Shown one piece after another: positions 45,652 through 52,906 of a stretch of DNA of 64,000 bases. The stretch comes from Pseudomonas leptonychotis (GTDB lineage: Bacteria > Pseudomonadota > Gammaproteobacteria > Pseudomonadales > Pseudomonadaceae). The notes under the pieces were generated by a model, which saw only the letters and a program-made list of their open reading frames with translations, was not told the DNA's origin and did not search any database. The DNA is taken from NCBI RefSeq assembly GCF_004920405.1, contig NZ_RFLV01000001.1, positions 1,178,001-1,242,000 of the forward strand, written 5' to 3'. Numbering within the stretch: the stretch's first letter is position 1; each line of letters starts with the position of its first letter. The position numbers were made by a program, and so were the translations under genes.

Positions 45652-47901
45652 ATGACCACGCCTGCCCTGCGCCCACTTCTCCGCCTGCTACTGCTGCACA
45701 CCGCGCTGCTGCTCGGTGTCGCTAACCAAGCCAATGCCTCGACCGAAGCGCCTGCACAGAGCGAGGACAGCTGGACCATCAATATGCAGAGCGCGGAAAT
45801 TCGCGACTTTATCGAGCAGATATCCAGCATCAGCGGGCAGACCTTTATTATTGACCCGCGGGTAAAAGGCCAGGTCACCGTAATTGCCCCGCAGCCGATG
45901 AACATCGCCGAGGTCTACAAGCTGTTTCTCTCGGTGATGAGCACCCATGGTTTCGCCGTGATGCCGCAGGGCAATCAGCTGAGCATCATCCCCAGCAGCG
46001 AGGCCAAGACCACCGCCGGCAGCAACGGCAACCTGGAAACTCGTGTACTGCAGGTGCAACACGGCGCCGCCAACGACCTGCTGCCGCTGATCCGTCCGCT
46101 GGTGGCCAACCATGGTCACCTGGCCGCCGTGCCTTCATCCAATAGCCTGATCATCAGCGACACGCCGGCCAATATCGCCCGCATCGACGAAATCATCCGC
46201 CAGCTGGACAGCCAGAATCAGGACGATTTCAGCGTCTATGACCTGCGCCATGCCTGGGTTCATGAATTGGCGGCGGTGATCAACAGCTCACTGAAAAACG
46301 CCCAGGCCAGCGGCGCCCAAGTGATTGCCGATACCCGCGCCAATCGTCTGCTGCTACTCGGCCCCAGCGACGCCCGCGCGCGCCTGTTAAAACTAGCGCA
46401 GAGCCTCGACACGCCTAGCTCGCGCTCGACCAATACCCGCGTTATCCGTCTACGCCATGGCGATGCCAAGGAAATGGCAAAGACCCTCGGCGACTTCGGC
46501 GACAACCTGAGCCAGAGTCAAGGCAACGAAAACGCCGCGCCGCTCAAGCTGATGATTCGCGCTGACGAAAGCCTCAACGCCATCGTCATCATGGCTGAAG
46601 CCGACGCCGTCAATATGTTTGAAGACTTGGTGCGCCAGCTGGATATCCCCCGCGCCCAAGTGCTGGTGGAGGCCGCTATTGTCGAGATGTCCGGTGACAT
46701 CAGTGACGCTCTCGGCGTGCAGTGGGCCATTGATGGCCGCGGTGGCAGTGGCCTAGGAGGGGTCAACTTCAGCAATACCGGGCTATCCGTCGGCACCCTA
46801 CTCGGCGCCATTGCCAGCAAAGAGACAGGCGATCTGGCTAAGACACTGCCCAACGGGGCGATCTTCGGGGTTGGTAACGATAACTTTGGCGCACTGATTA
46901 CGGCACTGTCGTCGACCGGCAAAAGTAACCTGCTGTCCACCCCAACTCTGCTAACGCTGGACAACCAGTCTGCCGAGATTTTGGTCGGGCAAAACGTACC
47001 GTTCCAAACAGGTTCTTACACCACCGACGCCGCCGGTTCGAGCAACCCTTTTACCACCATCGAACGCAAGGATATCGGCGTTACTCTCAAGGTCACCCCG
47101 CATATCAACGAAGGCTCGACCCTGCGCCTAGAGATCGAGCAAGAGATCTCGTCCATCGCCCCGAGCACTGGGCTGAATGCCCAAGCCGTGGACCTGGTCA
47201 CCAACAAACGCTCGATCAAGAGCACCGTGCTGGCCGATGATGGCCAGGTGATCGTGCTCGGCGGTCTGATTCAGGACGACATCACCAGCAGCGAGAGTAA
47301 GGTGCCGCTGCTCGGCGATATCCCAGGGATCGGCAAGCTGTTCCGCTCAACCCGCGAAGCGCGGCAAAAACGCAACCTGATGGTGTTCCTGCGCCCGACC
47401 GTGGCACGCGACGGCGTCGGCCTGGCCAACCTGAGCCTGGGCAAATACCGTGACCTGCGCCTGCTCGGCCAGGCCAACGGTTACGACCATCTACCGCAGC
47501 AGGCCCATGCCTTGTTCGACCAGGGCATTGAGGCAGCCGCAACCGACTTGCGCCAGCCGGCAAAAGCCATCCCGGCAAAACCGAGCAAGACCCTGATCGA
47601 AACGCCAAAACCTGTCGACCCGGCCACCCTGGGCGATGGCCGTGGCGGCGAAAGCAAACCCAAGGTTGCAGCGCGCCGCCACACCATCCAGCTGGTCGAA
47701 GGCAGCAGCCGCGAATTTATGCAGGCCCTGCTTGAACGCCACCCCAAGCAGCCCCTGCGTCTGGCCGAGAGCACGCAGGCCGGGGAAACCCGCTACGCCG
47801 TGCTCTATGGCAGCTACCCGAACCGCGAGACAGCGCTCAAAGCCCTGGCCGTTTTGCCTGAACAGCTGCCCAGACGCGGCGCCAGCGCCCTGCCCGAGTA
47901 A
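45652..47901 (+). CDS. gspD: GspD-type secretin with C-terminal SPOR-like domain
   Basis: A 749-residue outer-membrane secretin. Signal peptide ~1-33; N0 domain (INMQSAEIRDFIEQISSISG), then three repeat N-domains to ~335; secretin core ~340-585 with LLSTPTLLTLDNQSAEILVGQ, the ITSSESKVPLLGDIPGIGKLF signature (VPLLGDIP at ~550) and RQKRNLMVFLRPT. Instead of a pilotin-binding S-domain, the chain continues for ~165 residues and ends in a SPOR-like domain (~676-745: HTIQLVEGSSREFMQALL... RYAVLYGSYPNRETALKAL), which would bind peptidoglycan. No other T2SS pump genes are nearby, so it must use machinery encoded elsewhere. The ribosome binding site is poor. Confidence 0.9.
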   Translation: MTTPALRPLLRLLLLHTALLLGVANQANASTEAPAQSEDSWTINMQSAEIRDFIEQISSISGQTFIIDPRVKGQVTVIAPQPMNIAEVYKLFLSVMSTHGFAVMPQGNQLSIIPSSEAKTTAGSNGNLETRVLQVQHGAANDLLPLIRPLVANHGHLAAVPSSNSLIISDTPANIARIDEIIRQLDSQNQDDFSVYDLRHAWVHELAAVINSSLKNAQASGAQVIADTRANRLLLLGPSDARARLLKLAQSLDTPSSRSTNTRVIRLRHGDAKEMAKTLGDFGDNLSQSQGNENAAPLKLMIRADESLNAIVIMAEADAVNMFEDLVRQLDIPRAQVLVEAAIVEMSGDISDALGVQWAIDGRGGSGLGGVNFSNTGLSVGTLLGAIASKETGDLAKTLPNGAIFGVGNDNFGALITALSSTGKSNLLSTPTLLTLDNQSAEILVGQNVPFQTGSYTTDAAGSSNPFTTIERKDIGVTLKVTPHINEGSTLRLEIEQEISSIAPSTGLNAQAVDLVTNKRSIKSTVLADDGQVIVLGGLIQDDITSSESKVPLLGDIPGIGKLFRSTREARQKRNLMVFLRPTVARDGVGLANLSLGKYRDLRLLGQANGYDHLPQQAHALFDQGIEAAATDLRQPAKAIPAKPSKTLIETPKPVDPATLGDGRGGESKPKVAARRHTIQLVEGSSREFMQALLERHPKQPLRLAESTQAGETRYAVLYGSYPNRETALKALAVLPEQLPRRGASALPE

Positions 47902-47908
47902 GCCAAGA

Positions 47909-47935
47909 GGCGTTGCGGCACCGCGCAGCAACGCC
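47909..47935 (+). terminator. hairpin after the gspD-like gene
   Basis: GGCGTTGC (47909-47916) pairs with GCAACGCC (47928-47935) eight bases after the stop codon. There is no T-run, so it may be an mRNA-stabilising 3' hairpin rather than a true terminator. Confidence 0.4.
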
Positions 47936-48124
47936 ATAGCCGAGCTGATTGGAACTGTGCCCCATTTCCAGCGAGACGTGGCACACCCTCCATATGAGAC
48001 CAGCGTCCAAATTAGATAAGCTGGCCCTGCCCATACCCTCTGCCTGTGAACTGCATAGCGAATAACCGCAAAGGCTCTACCTAGACTGCGCTGCTTCAAC
48101 TTTCCAGACTAATGGAGCAGTCGC

Positions 48125-48805
48125 ATGTCAAAACGCTGGATTACAGCCGCAGTCGCCACCGCCATTGTCGGCGGCGTCTTAGGGGTCGTGCTCTCGGCTG
48201 ACCTTGAGCAGCCAAAGCCAACCCAGGCAGCATCGAACAACAGCGAGGGCGGCAAATCGCCCGCGCCCAGCCAGAGCACAGCCGCGCCCGCGAGCCAGGC
48301 AGCCAGCCAAGGCGCCAGCGGCGTCTCCACCCTGCAGGCCAAACCGCCCGTGACCACCAGCAGCGCCGCACAGGCCACGCTCTGGGACGCAGACTCGCTG
48401 CAGGAAACCGAAAGCAATGGCATCACTCAGCACCTGACCCTGGTCGACCCACAGCAACTCAGCAACCTTGCAGTCGGTCAGGTGGTCTCCCTGGCACTCC
48501 CGGGACGTAGCAGCCCAACCCGCGCCACCCTCGGCGAAACTCGCAACACCGCCGGCAGCGCCGTATGGCAAGGCAGCCTGATCGATGGCGACGAGGTGGA
48601 AAGCATGACCCTGGTGAAGGGCGCGCTGGAGACCCATATCACCGTCGCCACGCTCGACGGCAGCCTGTCGATCATCATCGATAACGCCACCGGCAAGACG
48701 GTGATCACCGATGAAAACCAGCTGGTAATGCGGGCCGATCCCAACGACAGCCTGCACTACGACCATAAAGAACTGGCTCCGCTGCCACCGCCCACCCAGG
48801 GCTGA
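48125..48805 (+). CDS. membrane-anchored protein resembling a metalloprotease propeptide
   Basis: A 226-residue protein I do not recognise by name. Residues ~5-25 are an uncleaved hydrophobic anchor; ~28-75 are an Ala/Ser/Gln/Pro-rich linker; ~80-215 form a beta-rich domain (LTLVDPQQLSNLAVGQVVSLAL, AVWQGSLIDGDEVESMTLV, LETHITVATLDGSLSIII). That WQG-x-DG-(E/S)-TLV-x-G pattern resembles the propeptide that normally precedes reprolysin-like metalloproteases in the same chain. The next gene, 35 bases on, is such a protease without a propeptide. The anchor-linker-domain layout is like lipase foldase Lif. Inferred role: periplasmic in-trans foldase or inhibitor of the protease. Confidence 0.6.
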   Translation: MSKRWITAAVATAIVGGVLGVVLSADLEQPKPTQAASNNSEGGKSPAPSQSTAAPASQAASQGASGVSTLQAKPPVTTSSAAQATLWDADSLQETESNGITQHLTLVDPQQLSNLAVGQVVSLALPGRSSPTRATLGETRNTAGSAVWQGSLIDGDEVESMTLVKGALETHITVATLDGSLSIIIDNATGKTVITDENQLVMRADPNDSLHYDHKELAPLPPPTQG

Positions 48806-48840
48806 TCACCGCTTACCCACATCGCACAAGGAATGCTGAT

Positions 48841-50637
48841 ATGAAAAAAGTGCAATGGCTCTCCGCCCTCGCACTGGCCCTGACCGCCCATAGCGCTCAG
48901 GCCAACCCGGAAACCGTCGACATCATGGTGCTCTACACCAAAGACGCGCAGAGCCTGCCCAACGGCCGCGATATCGACGCACGCATCGCCAGCTATATCG
49001 AATACACCAACACGGCCTACGCCAAAAGCGGGGTGAACATCCGCCTGCGCCTGGTGCACAAGCAGCTGCTCGACTGGGCCAATTACTACGACGTGTCCAG
49101 CGCCACCCTGAACAAGTTCACCGACGACGCCCAGGTAAAGCGCTTGCGCGAGCAATACGGCGCCGACGTGGTACAGCTGATCAACCGCACCACCCAGGGC
49201 CAGGGTTATGGCGTCTGCGGTATCGCCTGGATGGGCACTGGGGCGAAGAACAGCGACCGCTTCAACAGCGGTGCCAAGGAAATGGCCTATGGCCTAACCG
49301 GTGTCGACTGCAGCCTCAGCACCTTCGCCCATGAAGCCGGCCACAATATGGGCCTGCGCCATTCCTACGAGCAGGACCAGCAGGAAGGCTACTACAGCGC
49401 CAACGGCCACAACGGCACCCACGAATGGAGCCGTGGCTATGGCGTCCAGGGGCAGTTCAGCACCATCATGGCGTACCCGCAGGTCTTCGGCGCGCGCCGT
49501 CAGGCGCCGGTATTCTCCAACCCGCAGCTGAATGACGCCGACTGCGCAAACCAGCCTTGCGGCATGCCCGATCGCTCCGATGCCGTGCGCTCGCTTAACA
49601 CCATGGCCGGGCAGATCGCTACCTTCCGCGCCACCCAGGTACCGATCACCACTAACCCCGGCACAGGCAACCCGACCACGCCACCGGCCGAACTACCCTG
49701 GTGCAGCAAACCTGCGCTCAAGGGTCTGGTCAGCAACGGCGAGTTCAATAGCAACGAAGGCTGGCGTGCGCTGTTCGGCCAGGCTCAGCTGAGCCTGGTC
49801 AATGTGGCCTTGAACTGCCGCGACAATGCGCTGCAAATGGACGCGCAGTCCTTCGACGTACTGGCCACACCGGTCACCGGCCTGACTGCCGGCGCGCAAT
49901 ATCGCCTGAAAGCCAAGGCCATGCTCAAGGTCCGCGACAACCGTGAAAACGTGCGCGTGGCGATCCTGCAGGAAAGCACCGATGGCCGCTTTACCTACAG
50001 CGCCGAACAGACTGTCAGCCTGTCCGTGACTGGCAACGAGTTCAGCCGCCTGGAAAAATCCTTCACTTACACAACGCCAAGCAACGTGCGCAATCTGTAT
50101 GTGGCGATCTGGAGCGACAGCGGCAGCAGCCTGCTGGTTGATGAAGTCGAACTGCAAGAAGTCCAGGCCGCTGCGCCTCCTACACCACCGGCACCAACCC
50201 AGTTCGGCTGGAACTTCGAGAATGGCATTGGTGGCTGGTCTGGCTTCCATGGCAGCGCTCGCGCCAGCACCTTCGCCAGCGGCAGCCGGCAGGCCCTGGA
50301 AGCCTACCAGCGCCAGTACGAAGGCGCCGGAGCCAGCGTCAGCCTGCTCGGCAATGTCCAGGCCGGTAATCGCTATCGCGTTTCGGCCGATCTGAGCATT
50401 GGCCGTAGCAGTGCGGTTAGCGCCATCGCCTACGCCTACCTGTATGTCGAGGATGGCAACGGCCGCGGCCAGTATCTGTCACTTGGCCAGCGTCCCACCC
50501 GTGGTGGCAGCTGGAGCAAGCTGCAGCAGGAGGTACAACTGCCAGCCGGCACCCTGCGCCGCGTTGACCTGCTGATCCTGGGCACCCAACGTCGCGAGTC
50601 GCTGTTTATCGACAACGTCAGCATCGGCAAGCTGTAA
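48841..50637 (+). CDS. secreted reprolysin-like metzincin protease with two CBM-like domains
   Basis: A 598-residue secreted zinc protease. Signal peptide ~1-21 (SAQA cleavage); the catalytic domain begins at once (VDIMVLYTKDA) with no propeptide. The zinc site is HEAGHNMGLRH at 164-174 and the Met-turn Met is ~210 (TIMAYP), as in metzincins; CGIAWMG and FSNPQL match reprolysin-like/peptidyl-Asp metallopeptidase relatives. After a Pro/Thr linker (~272-290) come two jelly-roll modules like CBM4/9 (~293-440, LVSNGEFNSNEGW...; ~457-598, WNFENGIGGWSGF...). The modules suggest a carbohydrate-bearing substrate or surface. Neighbours suggest type II secretion. A terminator follows. Confidence 0.88.
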   Translation: MKKVQWLSALALALTAHSAQANPETVDIMVLYTKDAQSLPNGRDIDARIASYIEYTNTAYAKSGVNIRLRLVHKQLLDWANYYDVSSATLNKFTDDAQVKRLREQYGADVVQLINRTTQGQGYGVCGIAWMGTGAKNSDRFNSGAKEMAYGLTGVDCSLSTFAHEAGHNMGLRHSYEQDQQEGYYSANGHNGTHEWSRGYGVQGQFSTIMAYPQVFGARRQAPVFSNPQLNDADCANQPCGMPDRSDAVRSLNTMAGQIATFRATQVPITTNPGTGNPTTPPAELPWCSKPALKGLVSNGEFNSNEGWRALFGQAQLSLVNVALNCRDNALQMDAQSFDVLATPVTGLTAGAQYRLKAKAMLKVRDNRENVRVAILQESTDGRFTYSAEQTVSLSVTGNEFSRLEKSFTYTTPSNVRNLYVAIWSDSGSSLLVDEVELQEVQAAAPPTPPAPTQFGWNFENGIGGWSGFHGSARASTFASGSRQALEAYQRQYEGAGASVSLLGNVQAGNRYRVSADLSIGRSSAVSAIAYAYLYVEDGNGRGQYLSLGQRPTRGGSWSKLQQEVQLPAGTLRRVDLLILGTQRRESLFIDNVSIGKL

Positions 50638-50654
50638 ACACCCAGTAGCACCCG

Positions 50655-50688
50655 AGCCCATGGCTGCCTCAGCAGTCATGGGCTTTTT
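50655..50688 (+). terminator. terminator after the metzincin protease gene
   Basis: AGCCCATG (50655-50662) pairs with CATGGGCT (50677-50684), followed by T5. It separates the protease gene from the gspC-like gene, so the latter depends on read-through or its own promoter. Confidence 0.8.
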
Positions 50689-50703
50689 CATTAAGGAGTT
50701 TCT

Positions 50704-51234
50704 ATGTTGCCGCCCAGCAAAACAGCCCTGCCTATCGCCTCGGAGCATCTGATCGCAGGCCTGTGCCTGCTGCTACTGCTGGCCGGCAGCCTCAGCCTGG
50801 CCTATCAGGGCGCGGCCTTCTGGCGACTACTGCATAGCCCGATCAACTTAGCGCCCGTGGCGCACGCCCCGGTGCAACCGGTTATCGATCAGCAGCAGTT
50901 GGCAGCGCTGTTCGGCGCCCCTCTTCTCGACACGAGTGGCCCGGCTCCAGCCACCTCCCTGCAACTGACCTTGGTGGCCGCCTTCAATCACCCGCAAAGC
51001 AGCCGCTCCAGCGCCATCATCGGCCAAGCCGGCCAGACCGCTGAGCGTTTTATGGTGGGCGCAACCATCGCTCGAGGTGTGACCCTCGACAGCGTCCAAC
51101 GCCAGCACGTGACCCTGCGCCGCCATGGCCGCCGCGAGAGCCTGCACTTCCCAGACAAATCCACCCAGCAGCTGACAGCCACCCTCACACCTGTCACGAC
51201 AGCGCTGATCAGCCAAGCCATCAGTCGCGACTAA
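50704..51234 (+). CDS. short GspC-like type II secretion protein
   Basis: A 176-residue inner-membrane protein: cytoplasmic N-terminus, one membrane helix (~17-38), a linker, then an HR-type domain (~60-150: DQQQLAALFGAPLLD ... LQLTLVAAFNHP ... SAIIGQAGQTAERFMVGATIARGVTLDSVQRQHVTLRRHGRRESL) typical of GspC/XcpP. It ends without the PDZ or coiled-coil module of full-length C proteins. In T2SS the HR domain contacts the N0 domain of GspD, and a GspD homologue lies 2.8 kb upstream. AAGGAG precedes the start. The pairing recalls the orphan XphA/XqhA pair of P. aeruginosa. Confidence 0.8.
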   Translation: MLPPSKTALPIASEHLIAGLCLLLLLAGSLSLAYQGAAFWRLLHSPINLAPVAHAPVQPVIDQQQLAALFGAPLLDTSGPAPATSLQLTLVAAFNHPQSSRSSAIIGQAGQTAERFMVGATIARGVTLDSVQRQHVTLRRHGRRESLHFPDKSTQQLTATLTPVTTALISQAISRD

Positions 51235-51565
51235 ACAGCCGCCGTGAAAATTTCAACCGGCACAACCTCGACCGGCCTGATGAAAAGCCAGCCGAACCGC
51301 GTGCGATCCGGCGACGACAAACGCACCGGCTGACCGCGCTGATAGCCCCGGCCATAAATACTCTTGCCCCAGTTGTGGCAAACCACTTCACAGCATCGCA
51401 ACCAGCAATAGACACTGGCTCAGCACACCCCTGACATGCCCTGCATAACCAAGAGATTGATAGCCGGCACAAAGCAAAATAGTCCGACCAACATGAACTA
51501 CTGCAGTTACCCACAAATAAAAAAACCGCCTGCGAAGAGGCGGTTTTTTTCAGTGCTACCGAGGT
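51235..51565. other. intergenic region at the right edge of the secretion cassette
   Basis: No annotated gene is supported in these 331 bases apart from the terminator at 51519-51550. On the minus strand a stop-free stretch from about 51425 to a TAG at 51231 reads plausibly (for example GRGYQRGQPVRLSS and FGWLFIRPVEVVPVEIF) but has no good start codon or ribosome binding site; it may be the decayed end of a former gene. Confidence 0.35.
51519..51550. terminator. terminator of the DUF1329 gene
   Basis: AAAAAACCGCCT, loop GCGAAG, AGGCGGTTTTTTT: strong stem with A and T runs on both sides, 16 bases past the DUF1329 stop on the minus strand. Confidence 0.92.
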
Positions 51566-52906
51566 TCAGTTGCCTAGGCGCAACGCTTGCGGGGTGAAGT
51601 CGCGCGGCGATAGCTTGGCGTTGAAGTCGTACATCGGCTCATTGTTATCCAGGCCATCAACGAAGTAGCGCCCCCCCTTGAAGTCGTAGATGGTCTCCAG
51701 GGTGCTGCCGAACATTGGCACGTCGTAGTAGCTGATCGGGTGGCTTTCCTGCAGGCCGCTCAGCTCACCGTTCTTGTCGTACAGATCAACAGCGAGAATC
51801 TGCCAGCTGTCTTCGTCGATATAAAAACGGCGCTTGGCATACGGATGACTGAAGCCTTTGCGCAAATCGGCCTCGACCACCCACACCCGGTGCAGCTCGT
51901 AGCGCAGCAACTCGGGATTAAGCGCATCACTGCGCACGATGTTGTCGTAAGGAATGCCCTTCTGGTGCACGGCATAGCTGTTGTACGGCACCAGCATTTC
52001 TTGCTTGCCTACCAGGTTCCACTCATACCGATCGGGGGCACCGTTGTAGGAGTCGACAACGTCAGCGGTGGCCATGCCATTGGTATCGGGCTGCATGGAG
52101 TCATAGGCCAACATTGGCAAGCGGCGAACGCGGCGCTCACCGCGGCTGAAGCGCCAAGCCTTGCGGATCGCCAGTACCTGATCGAGCGTTTCCTGCACCA
52201 CCAATGCCGAGCCGGCGAGCTTGGAAGGCGCGACTACTTTGTACTTGTAGTAAAACAGGGTGTTGTCCAAGTCCTGCGGGCTGACGCCTTCACGGCCATA
52301 GAGGAAGTAAACATCACGCTCCAGTTTGAGCAGGTTGAAAGCACCGCTGGACAGCACAGCCGCCTGATTGGTGACAAAGCTGATCTGGTCCCCGCGGTAA
52401 CGCATGATGTGGTTCCAGATGGCTTCCTGGCCGGTTTTAGGCAGAGGGAAAGGAATACCCGCTGCCGCACCGTCGACACCGTTGCCACCCGAGATCAACT
52501 CAGCGTTCTGCGCATTGAAGCGCGTAGCATCATAGATACGTTGCGGTGCAGCCGCACTACGACGGGTGGGGAAAACTCGCAGGAAATAATCCGGATTTTT
52601 CGTCAGCAGGGTTTGCAAGCCCGCAGGCAGCTGCGCCTGGTACTGCGCCATATTTTGGCTGTTGATCTGGTACAGCATGGCATCGGCAGCGTAAGGGTCC
52701 GGATGGTGCATACCCGGCTGGTAGTTGGCCGGCGGTTGTGCCAGGCCTCCATCCCAAGCGGGAATGGTGCCAGCGGTATTACCCGCGCGCTCTCCGCCCA
52801 GCGGAGTCAGGTCCTGACCCAGACGCGCGGCCTGGGTACTGTCGACTTTGGCCTGTGCCTGTAGCGCACACGTAGCCAGTAGCAGAATTGCAAGCGTTCT
52901 CAACAC
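51566..52906 (-). CDS. DUF1329 family periplasmic protein
   Basis: A 446-residue exported protein of the DUF1329 family, a LolA/LolB-like beta fold thought to bind lipids or hydrophobic compounds. Signal peptide ~1-19. Family signatures: RLGQDLTPLGGERAGNTAGTIPAWDGGL, FPLPKTGQEAIWNH and RRVRRLPMLAYDSMQPDTNG. In pseudomonads such genes often neighbour RND-type or fatty-acid/ester-related genes, but here it stands alone. The start is GTG at 52906 with GAGGAG six bases upstream. Confidence 0.93.
   Translation of the reverse strand: MLRTLAILLLATCALQAQAKVDSTQAARLGQDLTPLGGERAGNTAGTIPAWDGGLAQPPANYQPGMHHPDPYAADAMLYQINSQNMAQYQAQLPAGLQTLLTKNPDYFLRVFPTRRSAAAPQRIYDATRFNAQNAELISGGNGVDGAAAGIPFPLPKTGQEAIWNHIMRYRGDQISFVTNQAAVLSSGAFNLLKLERDVYFLYGREGVSPQDLDNTLFYYKYKVVAPSKLAGSALVVQETLDQVLAIRKAWRFSRGERRVRRLPMLAYDSMQPDTNGMATADVVDSYNGAPDRYEWNLVGKQEMLVPYNSYAVHQKGIPYDNIVRSDALNPELLRYELHRVWVVEADLRKGFSHPYAKRRFYIDEDSWQILAVDLYDKNGELSGLQESHPISYYDVPMFGSTLETIYDFKGGRYFVDGLDNNEPMYDFNAKLSPRDFTPQALRLGN

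Follow-up and report, generated by a model that had tools for sequence, protein, structure and literature searches.

BamI, the membrane-anchored partner of the metzincin Mep72, as a probable pro-domain encoded by its own gene

Some secreted metzincins pass from the signal peptide directly into the catalytic domain. Where is the pro-domain of such an enzyme, and does the small membrane protein encoded next to it take its place? The question is raised by two adjacent genes, bamI and mep72, in a 64,000-nucleotide stretch of the genome of Pseudomonas leptonychotis (contig NZ_RFLV01000001.1, positions 1,178,001 to 1,242,000), here called the window. The main features are the following.

45652..47901, plus strand: extra GspD-type secretin with a C-terminal SPOR domain, upstream of bamI (TIGR02517, 523.7 bits; SPOR, 9.2e-07; longest open reading frame from 45445)
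48125..48805, plus strand: bamI, 226 aa (NCBIfam NF052435, positions 1-226, 258.7 bits, cut-off 180; AlphaFold model; Foldseek matches to CpaB and pro-metzincins)
48131..48196, plus strand: BamI residues 3-24, N-terminal membrane helix (DSSP helix in the model, hydrophobic stretch in the sequence)
48197..48364, plus strand: BamI residues 25-80, flexible linker rich in A, S, P and Q (composition; block pLDDT 44-67 over residues 31-80)
48365..48733, plus strand: BamI residues 81-203, predicted beta pro-domain with a W-x-G ... T-L-V-x-G core (pLDDT 93-98 over 81-200; profile matches to fused domains)
48734..48802, plus strand: BamI residues 204-226, tail ending LAPLPPPTQG, candidate zinc plug (D-x-hydrophobic motif, Asp208 at 48746-48748)
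48841..50637, plus strand: mep72, 598 aa, secreted metzincin with two CBM_4_9 matches and no cis pro-domain (NCBIfam NF052434, positions 1-573, 774 bits, cut-off 645; Pfam Reprolysin_3/5 and CBM_4_9)
48841..48903, plus strand: predicted Mep72 signal peptide, residues 1-21, ending AQA (read from the sequence, with a putative cleavage site)
49330..49362, plus strand: Mep72 zinc motif HEAGHNMGLRH, residues 164-174 (sequence)
50654..50685, plus strand: terminator-like hairpin of 14 pairs with a T tail, between mep72 and gspC (5 such hits in the region, 4.1 expected from shuffled sequence)
50704..51234, plus strand: short GspC-like protein, 176 aa, downstream of mep72 (Pfam T2SSC, 5.7e-17; relatives at the same place)

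The two genes are separate open reading frames, read in different frames, and bamI lies directly upstream of mep72 at a distance of 35 bases. A chance reading frame is ruled out for bamI by the NCBIfam family models of BamI and Mep72; nothing rose above the family cut-off in a Pfam scan of BamI. The initial annotation had described a membrane anchor, an Ala/Pro/Gln linker and a beta domain. The anchor and the beta domain were recovered in the AlphaFold model (27-row alignment A2; mean pLDDT 79.5), which is of low confidence over residues ~30-75 and intermediate in the tail (64-90). The linker is indeed rich in Ala, Pro and Gln, but serine equals alanine in frequency (11 A, 11 S, 7 P and 6 Q among 56 residues). 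The WQG...DG..TLV.G pattern pointed out there is found in BamI, as VWQGSLIDGDEVESMTLVKG. In Mep72 the zinc motif and the Met-turn (IMAY, residue 209) are both intact. The Pfam Reprolysin_5 match begins at residue 23, leaving no room for a pro-domain after the signal peptide, as had been read from the sequence at first.

BamI and Mep72 are a known pair; added here are evidence for a relation of BamI to CpaB and to fused metzincin pro-domains, and the list of forms given below. The opinion that no system of this kind had been described for metzincins is not tenable. In P. aeruginosa, Mep72 and BamI (PA2783/PA2782) are reported to form an operon, Mep72 is a type II substrate, BamI binds Mep72 in vitro after refolding, and its co-expression relieves the toxicity of Mep72 in E. 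coli DH5alpha (PMC4334185). Passmore et al. name and discuss BamI as an inhibitor, compared with AprI; regions of BamI are predicted there to be unfolded, and the binding assay used refolded proteins (PMC4334185). Balyimez et al. describe the control of Mep72 by Vfr and report that a PA2783 plasmid gave proteolytic activity in E. coli (PMC4222646), so BamI is perhaps dispensable for folding. Table 1 of a 2016 paper lists the neighbour of Mep72, under the printed tag PA2872, as a putative membrane-bound type II secretion chaperone beside CpaB (PMC4713064). The structure of the metzincin CpaA with its membrane-anchored trans partner CpaB has been solved, and the tail of CpaB blocks the CpaA active site in a zymogen-like manner (PMC7542363). 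A literature search over titles, abstract starts and term counts, with the primary CpaA-CpaB papers outside its scope, found none joining BamI with the word prodomain; within the same scope CpaA, CpaB and propeptide occurred together in one paper only, whose title is on another subject. The pair of the window belongs to the same NCBIfam equivalog families as that of P. aeruginosa and has the same gene order and the same metzincin with two carbohydrate-binding domains (PMC4334185, PMC4222646). It differs in the intergenic gap, 78 bases in P. aeruginosa (PMC4222646), and in its location in a hemW-trmB stretch, with a secretin gene on one side and gspC on the other; its function in P. leptonychotis is predicted.

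Pairing of the two genes was analyzed in 298 genomes of the family of the window, its own genome included, at the NCBIfam cut-offs. BamI exceeds the cut-off in 17 genomes, and Mep72 in the same 17. The copies number 23 for each protein, and by coordinates bamI is directly upstream of mep72 in 23/23. Weaker Mep72-like matches occur in 17 further genomes. In five of these (two of genus g4, three of g5) the gene directly upstream is separate, BamI-like and longer than bamI (265-302 aa by open reading frame), and is related to BamI in a profile comparison (E 2.5e-6, 89%). In the one genome scanned of each genus, the metzincin features ricin-type lectin matches. The other 12 genomes hold more distant metzincins, among them the fused proteins L079 and L082. 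Whether homologues of the protease occur without bamI had been raised at the outset: close ones do not among the 23 copies over the cut-off, distant ones often have a fused domain instead (45 of 79 loci, among the matches listed).

Fused and separate forms were sought in a contig scan with a profile of eight Mep72-like catalytic domains, which gave at least 588 stretches and at least 93 relatives, with at least 79 distinct loci kept. A profile of 22 BamI and the five g4/g5 genes was compared with 1526 open reading frames of the 79 listed loci, of which only L104 (Pseudomonas otitidis) shares a genome with the profile. Matched were free-standing genes next to metzincins on contigs of Microbulbifer, Cellvibrio, planctomycetes and deltaproteobacteria (L123, 5.9e-11; L108, 1.4e-10), and the N-termini of fused proteins (L121, 1e-5; L113, 3.4e-5; L107, 3.5e-5); the best reversed decoy among the 1526 frames scored 1.6. 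Four rounds of iteration brought 70 frames past 1e-3, with the best reversed decoy at 0.0057. Iterated searches can drift, and homology was therefore rested on the first profile round. In an hhalign comparison the 22 BamI alone matched 24 fused domains (95%, P 3.3e-8; reversed control 0.5%; 95-97% over the hhalign comparisons with fused domains); the 24 rows were picked from the iterated search started from BamI, a selection which the reversed control leaves in place. Other comparisons gave less. A BamI-only HMM matched fused proteins weakly (best 0.23, L173; in another run 0.059, L082, with a reversed frame at 0.15), and a first hhalign run of BamI against three fused sequences was not significant. 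The fused L079 was recovered only in the last iteration (E 0.0029), and a search across the class, started from a fused Pseudomonadaceae protein, had matches in 2 of 321 genomes. Comparison of alignments A2 and A4 is not independent, as they have rows in common.

Sorted by rule, the 79 loci among the matches listed comprise 45 with a fused domain, 10 with the domain in a neighbouring gene (upstream in 6, downstream in 4) and 24 with neither; in many of the latter the long N-terminal region contains nothing recognisable. Inspection by eye revealed an anchored upstream gene inside an overlong frame at L119, one in pieces at L109, a weak candidate at L110 (E 0.0019) and none at L111. A separate gene is found at 10 of the 12 listed loci in which the signal peptide, as read, lies too close to the catalytic domain for a pro-domain to fit between them (L104, L108, L110, L111, L112, L118, L119, L122, L123, L126, L135, L163; L116 and L109 were excluded on account of their 5' ends).

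Some loci have a peculiar organization. L109, from a Candidatus Endonucleobacter MAG, has its BamI-like gene and its metzincin in fragments, through decay or assembly error. The fused proteins of L105, L106, L107, L113 and L117, near to Mep72, carry ~180-200 extra residues between pro-domain and catalytic domain, which may be CARDB-like. In a Maricaulis MAG (L145:1310-8714) four consecutive frames match the pro-domain profile, and metzincin-like sequence then follows, by eye, in at least three; the last of the four is cut by the locus end.

The predicted fold leads to CpaB first and to zymogens second. In a Foldseek search of the PDB with the BamI model, ranks 1-6 are chains of 6o38 (E 6.2e-7 to 1.6e-5, TM by target 0.66-0.74); chain G is CpaB by profile match, and the remaining 6o38 chains were taken as CpaB by length. 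Ranks 7-25 are all Bacteroides pro-metzincins, chiefly profragilysin (profragilysin-3, BFT-1, BFT-2, metalloproteinase II; E 5.6e-3 to 3.7e-2), and ADAM17 zymogens stand at ranks 26 and 42. E < 0.001 is reached by the six 6o38 rows only, and FBPase and fatty-acid-binding entries appear from E 0.048, so that the weaker rows count for little by themselves. The output gives no target ranges for the profragilysin match, which presumably falls on the pro-domain of that protein. A fold unrelated to metalloprotease propeptides is thus not what structure prediction returned. The model of the fused protein L121 (pTM 0.73) features a pro-domain with a strand order similar to that of BamI, in addition to the catalytic domain. 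The PDB entries it matches best are CpaA (372 columns) and ADAM17, with profragilysin next over >400 columns.

Sequence comparisons point the same way. Profile A2 has 6o38_G (CpaB) as top PDB match (E 0.0035). The NCBIfam models of CpaB and BamI share intermediates, L135 (9.9e-20 and 5.9e-9) and L043 (4.8e-14 and 2.8e-8), and weaker shared matches, weak in one or both, are L123, L108, L112, L126, L127 and L045. The CpaB model NF033512 scores 71.4, 52.8 and 49.8 bits on L135, L043 and L116, all below its 90-bit cut-off, and does not match BamI of the window at E 1. BamI and CpaB were taken as one superfamily because both family models match the same intermediates, together with the fold and profile matches, although the window protein misses the CpaB model. 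A PDB sequence search with BamI alone gave 0 matches, and a profile of fused domains only missed both CpaB and fragilysin in the PDB up to E 10, the best of its unrelated matches being at 0.19. The SRPBCC/Aha1 assignment given for the CpaB class (PMC4713064) was rejected: the Pfam families matched each occur in at most 2 of the 27 A2 members, with 0.0046 as the lowest E and no SRPBCC among their names, and the fold matches are different. That BamI resembles the N-terminal propeptide of reprolysin-like proteases, as initially annotated, is a point on which profile search, predicted fold and intermediates agree.

CpaA/CpaB of Acinetobacter (PDB 6o38) is a second described pair. CpaA has other accessory domains. 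The partner has the same predicted fold as BamI and is linked to it by the shared intermediates. As for Mep72, a metzincin secreted by type II has a membrane-anchored partner encoded next door, but cpaB is downstream of cpaA (PMC4713064), while bamI is upstream of mep72. In profragilysin and ADAM17 the pro-domain, which the BamI domain matches less well than it does CpaB, is part of the enzyme chain, whereas BamI is a membrane protein in its own right. Most of the length of the fused L121 aligns with these zymogens. The lipase foldase Lif, with which the gene had been compared in the initial annotation, is all-helical. No Lif family was matched in Pfam or NCBIfam, and no Lif entry is among the best 50 of 1093 fold matches. 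What holds of the comparison is the architecture: an N-terminal membrane anchor, a periplasmic domain, an adjacent gene and a type II client, as in Lif/LipB (PMC4713064).

A quick tree was made from 78 catalytic domains (71 of the 79 listed loci plus seven Pseudomonadaceae rows; eight loci, too short or partial, were dropped). One group of 28 rows (SH-aLRT 94) holds all 17 with a separate pro-domain; the rest of it is made up of eight fused rows and three unassigned. Four changes between fused and separate forms are needed on this tree, against at least 11 in 200 label shuffles. A single origin, with the separate rows held together, is not rejected (p 0.176).

Past the beta domain by few residues, the motif D-x-[VILM] is found in 22/22 BamI tails (shuffled mean 8.9, maximum 16), and 19/22 fit a stricter pattern that also requires P or D after it. 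The motif was first spotted by eye, and the shuffled control came afterwards. The 68 post-domain segments of the iterated hits, L104 included, divide into 33 with the loose Asp pattern, 2 with the Cys form only (L119, L122) and 33 with none. The loose pattern exceeds shuffled segments by a modest margin (mean 20.4, maximum 32), the tighter D-x-[VILM]-x-P by a clear one, with 19 of the 68 segments (shuffled mean 4.7, maximum 11). Zymogen metzincins are described in which an aspartate or a cysteine sits on the zinc (PMC9629494). Together with the BamI tail motif and the position of the CpaB tail, this leads us to predict Asp208 as a candidate zinc ligand or plug.

BamI is probably a metzincin pro-domain encoded by a gene of its own and tethered to the inner membrane. 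Mep72, which lacks a pro-domain, would be exported by Sec. Once in the periplasm, its catalytic domain would be bound by the beta domain of BamI, as by the fused pro-domain in related zymogens, and may be helped to fold or to stay stable; the C-terminal tail would block the active-site cleft, possibly with Asp208 on the zinc, and Mep72 may eventually be handed over for secretion. The split propeptide acting in trans, proposed in the initial annotation, is well supported by profile, fold and intermediates, and by the lack of a cis pro-domain in Mep72.

Three other readings were weighed. CpaB is required for the secretion of CpaA and is termed a chaperone, and the same table sets the Mep72 neighbour beside it (PMC4713064); as bamI and mep72 lie between secretin and GspC genes in the window, BamI might be mainly a secretion chaperone of the CpaB kind, stabilising Mep72 and delivering it to the type II system, the block of the active site being incidental. 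This is unlikely, as BamI relieves the toxicity of Mep72 in E. coli (PMC4334185), the tail of CpaB itself blocks the active site (PMC7542363), and the fold matches include pro-metzincins.

A still less probable reading makes BamI a periplasmic inhibitor with no role in folding, like AprI for AprA. AprI is not known to have a membrane anchor. BamI has a membrane helix, the proteins related to it by profile and by fold are CpaB and pro-domains, and no AprI entry is found among the best 50 of 1093 fold matches. AprA uses a type I system (PMC4334185). The inhibitor reading draws on the name and discussion given by Passmore et al., on the fact that AprI too is coexpressed with a metzincin (PMC4334185), and on the activity obtained in E. 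coli with PA2783 (PMC4222646). Convergence, by which a small beta domain would have been selected independently as a protease-binding module, is hardly credible given the profile E-values with reversed controls, the common core and tail motifs, and the single group which separate and fused forms make in the catalytic-domain tree, though 24 of the 26 other A2 rows are only 11-21% identical to the first sequence and the first hhalign run, against three fused sequences, fell short of significance.

Taking BamI as a pro-domain in trans, a broader picture is probable, if somewhat less so. BamI and CpaB would belong to a single widespread class of trans pro-domains that are anchored in the membrane and exchangeable with fused ones over evolutionary time; a tail Asp or Cys would serve as zinc switch in trans, and some Pseudomonas pairs would be matched with a secretin and a GspC of their own. 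This would give the inhibitor BamI and the chaperone CpaB a common origin and a common mechanism, that of a pro-domain on a separate protein, and would explain why such metzincins have no pro-domain themselves. A trans pro-domain held at the membrane would uncouple folding and latency from the proteolytic removal of a propeptide. It points to a residue, Asp208, that may block the zinc, and the listed fused and separate relatives make the switch between forms directly testable.

The genes flanking the pair belong to type II secretion. The secretin start was set at the ATG at 45652 because a signal-like sequence follows. The main type II cluster of the genome is elsewhere (gspE C1:118962, gspC C1:120730, gspD C1:121475), and the window secretin is one further secretin over the cut-off. 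Both hemW and trmB, the names that delimit the stretch, were confirmed by family search. The order secretin, bamI, mep72, gspC is found in 5 of the 17 BamI genomes (G000, G153, G176, G338, G388), with hemW beside it in 4/4 genomes for which the neighbourhood was listed. As the P. aeruginosa strain examined lacked the whole xcpP-Z set (PMC4334185), the secretin used by Mep72 is not decidable from these published data. Cotranscription of bamI-mep72 with gspC was considered and is unlikely given the hairpin at 50654-50685, though such hits are at chance level; the hairpin, which separates mep72 from gspC, suggests a transcript of bamI-mep72 alone. No sigma-70-type promoter was found in 47850-51700. 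For P. aeruginosa, Passmore et al. had nothing to indicate that the pair is cotranscribed with PA2781 or PA2784 (PMC4334185).

Secretins that align with that of the window through the SPOR domain are found in 13 of the 19 genomes with BamI over the cut-off or a g4 BamI-like gene, and in at least 3 of the other 279 genomes (G414, G417, G385), kinship among genomes being ignored in both counts. Second copies of the pair occur in some strains. G153 and G388 (L058, L025) have a diverged bamI-mep72 copy elsewhere in the genome, which in G153 shows 48% and 53% identity to the window proteins and has no secretin match beside it. In G236, G247, G299 and G313 (L064, L065, L076) two bamI-mep72 operons lie, by coordinates, back to back in divergent orientation.
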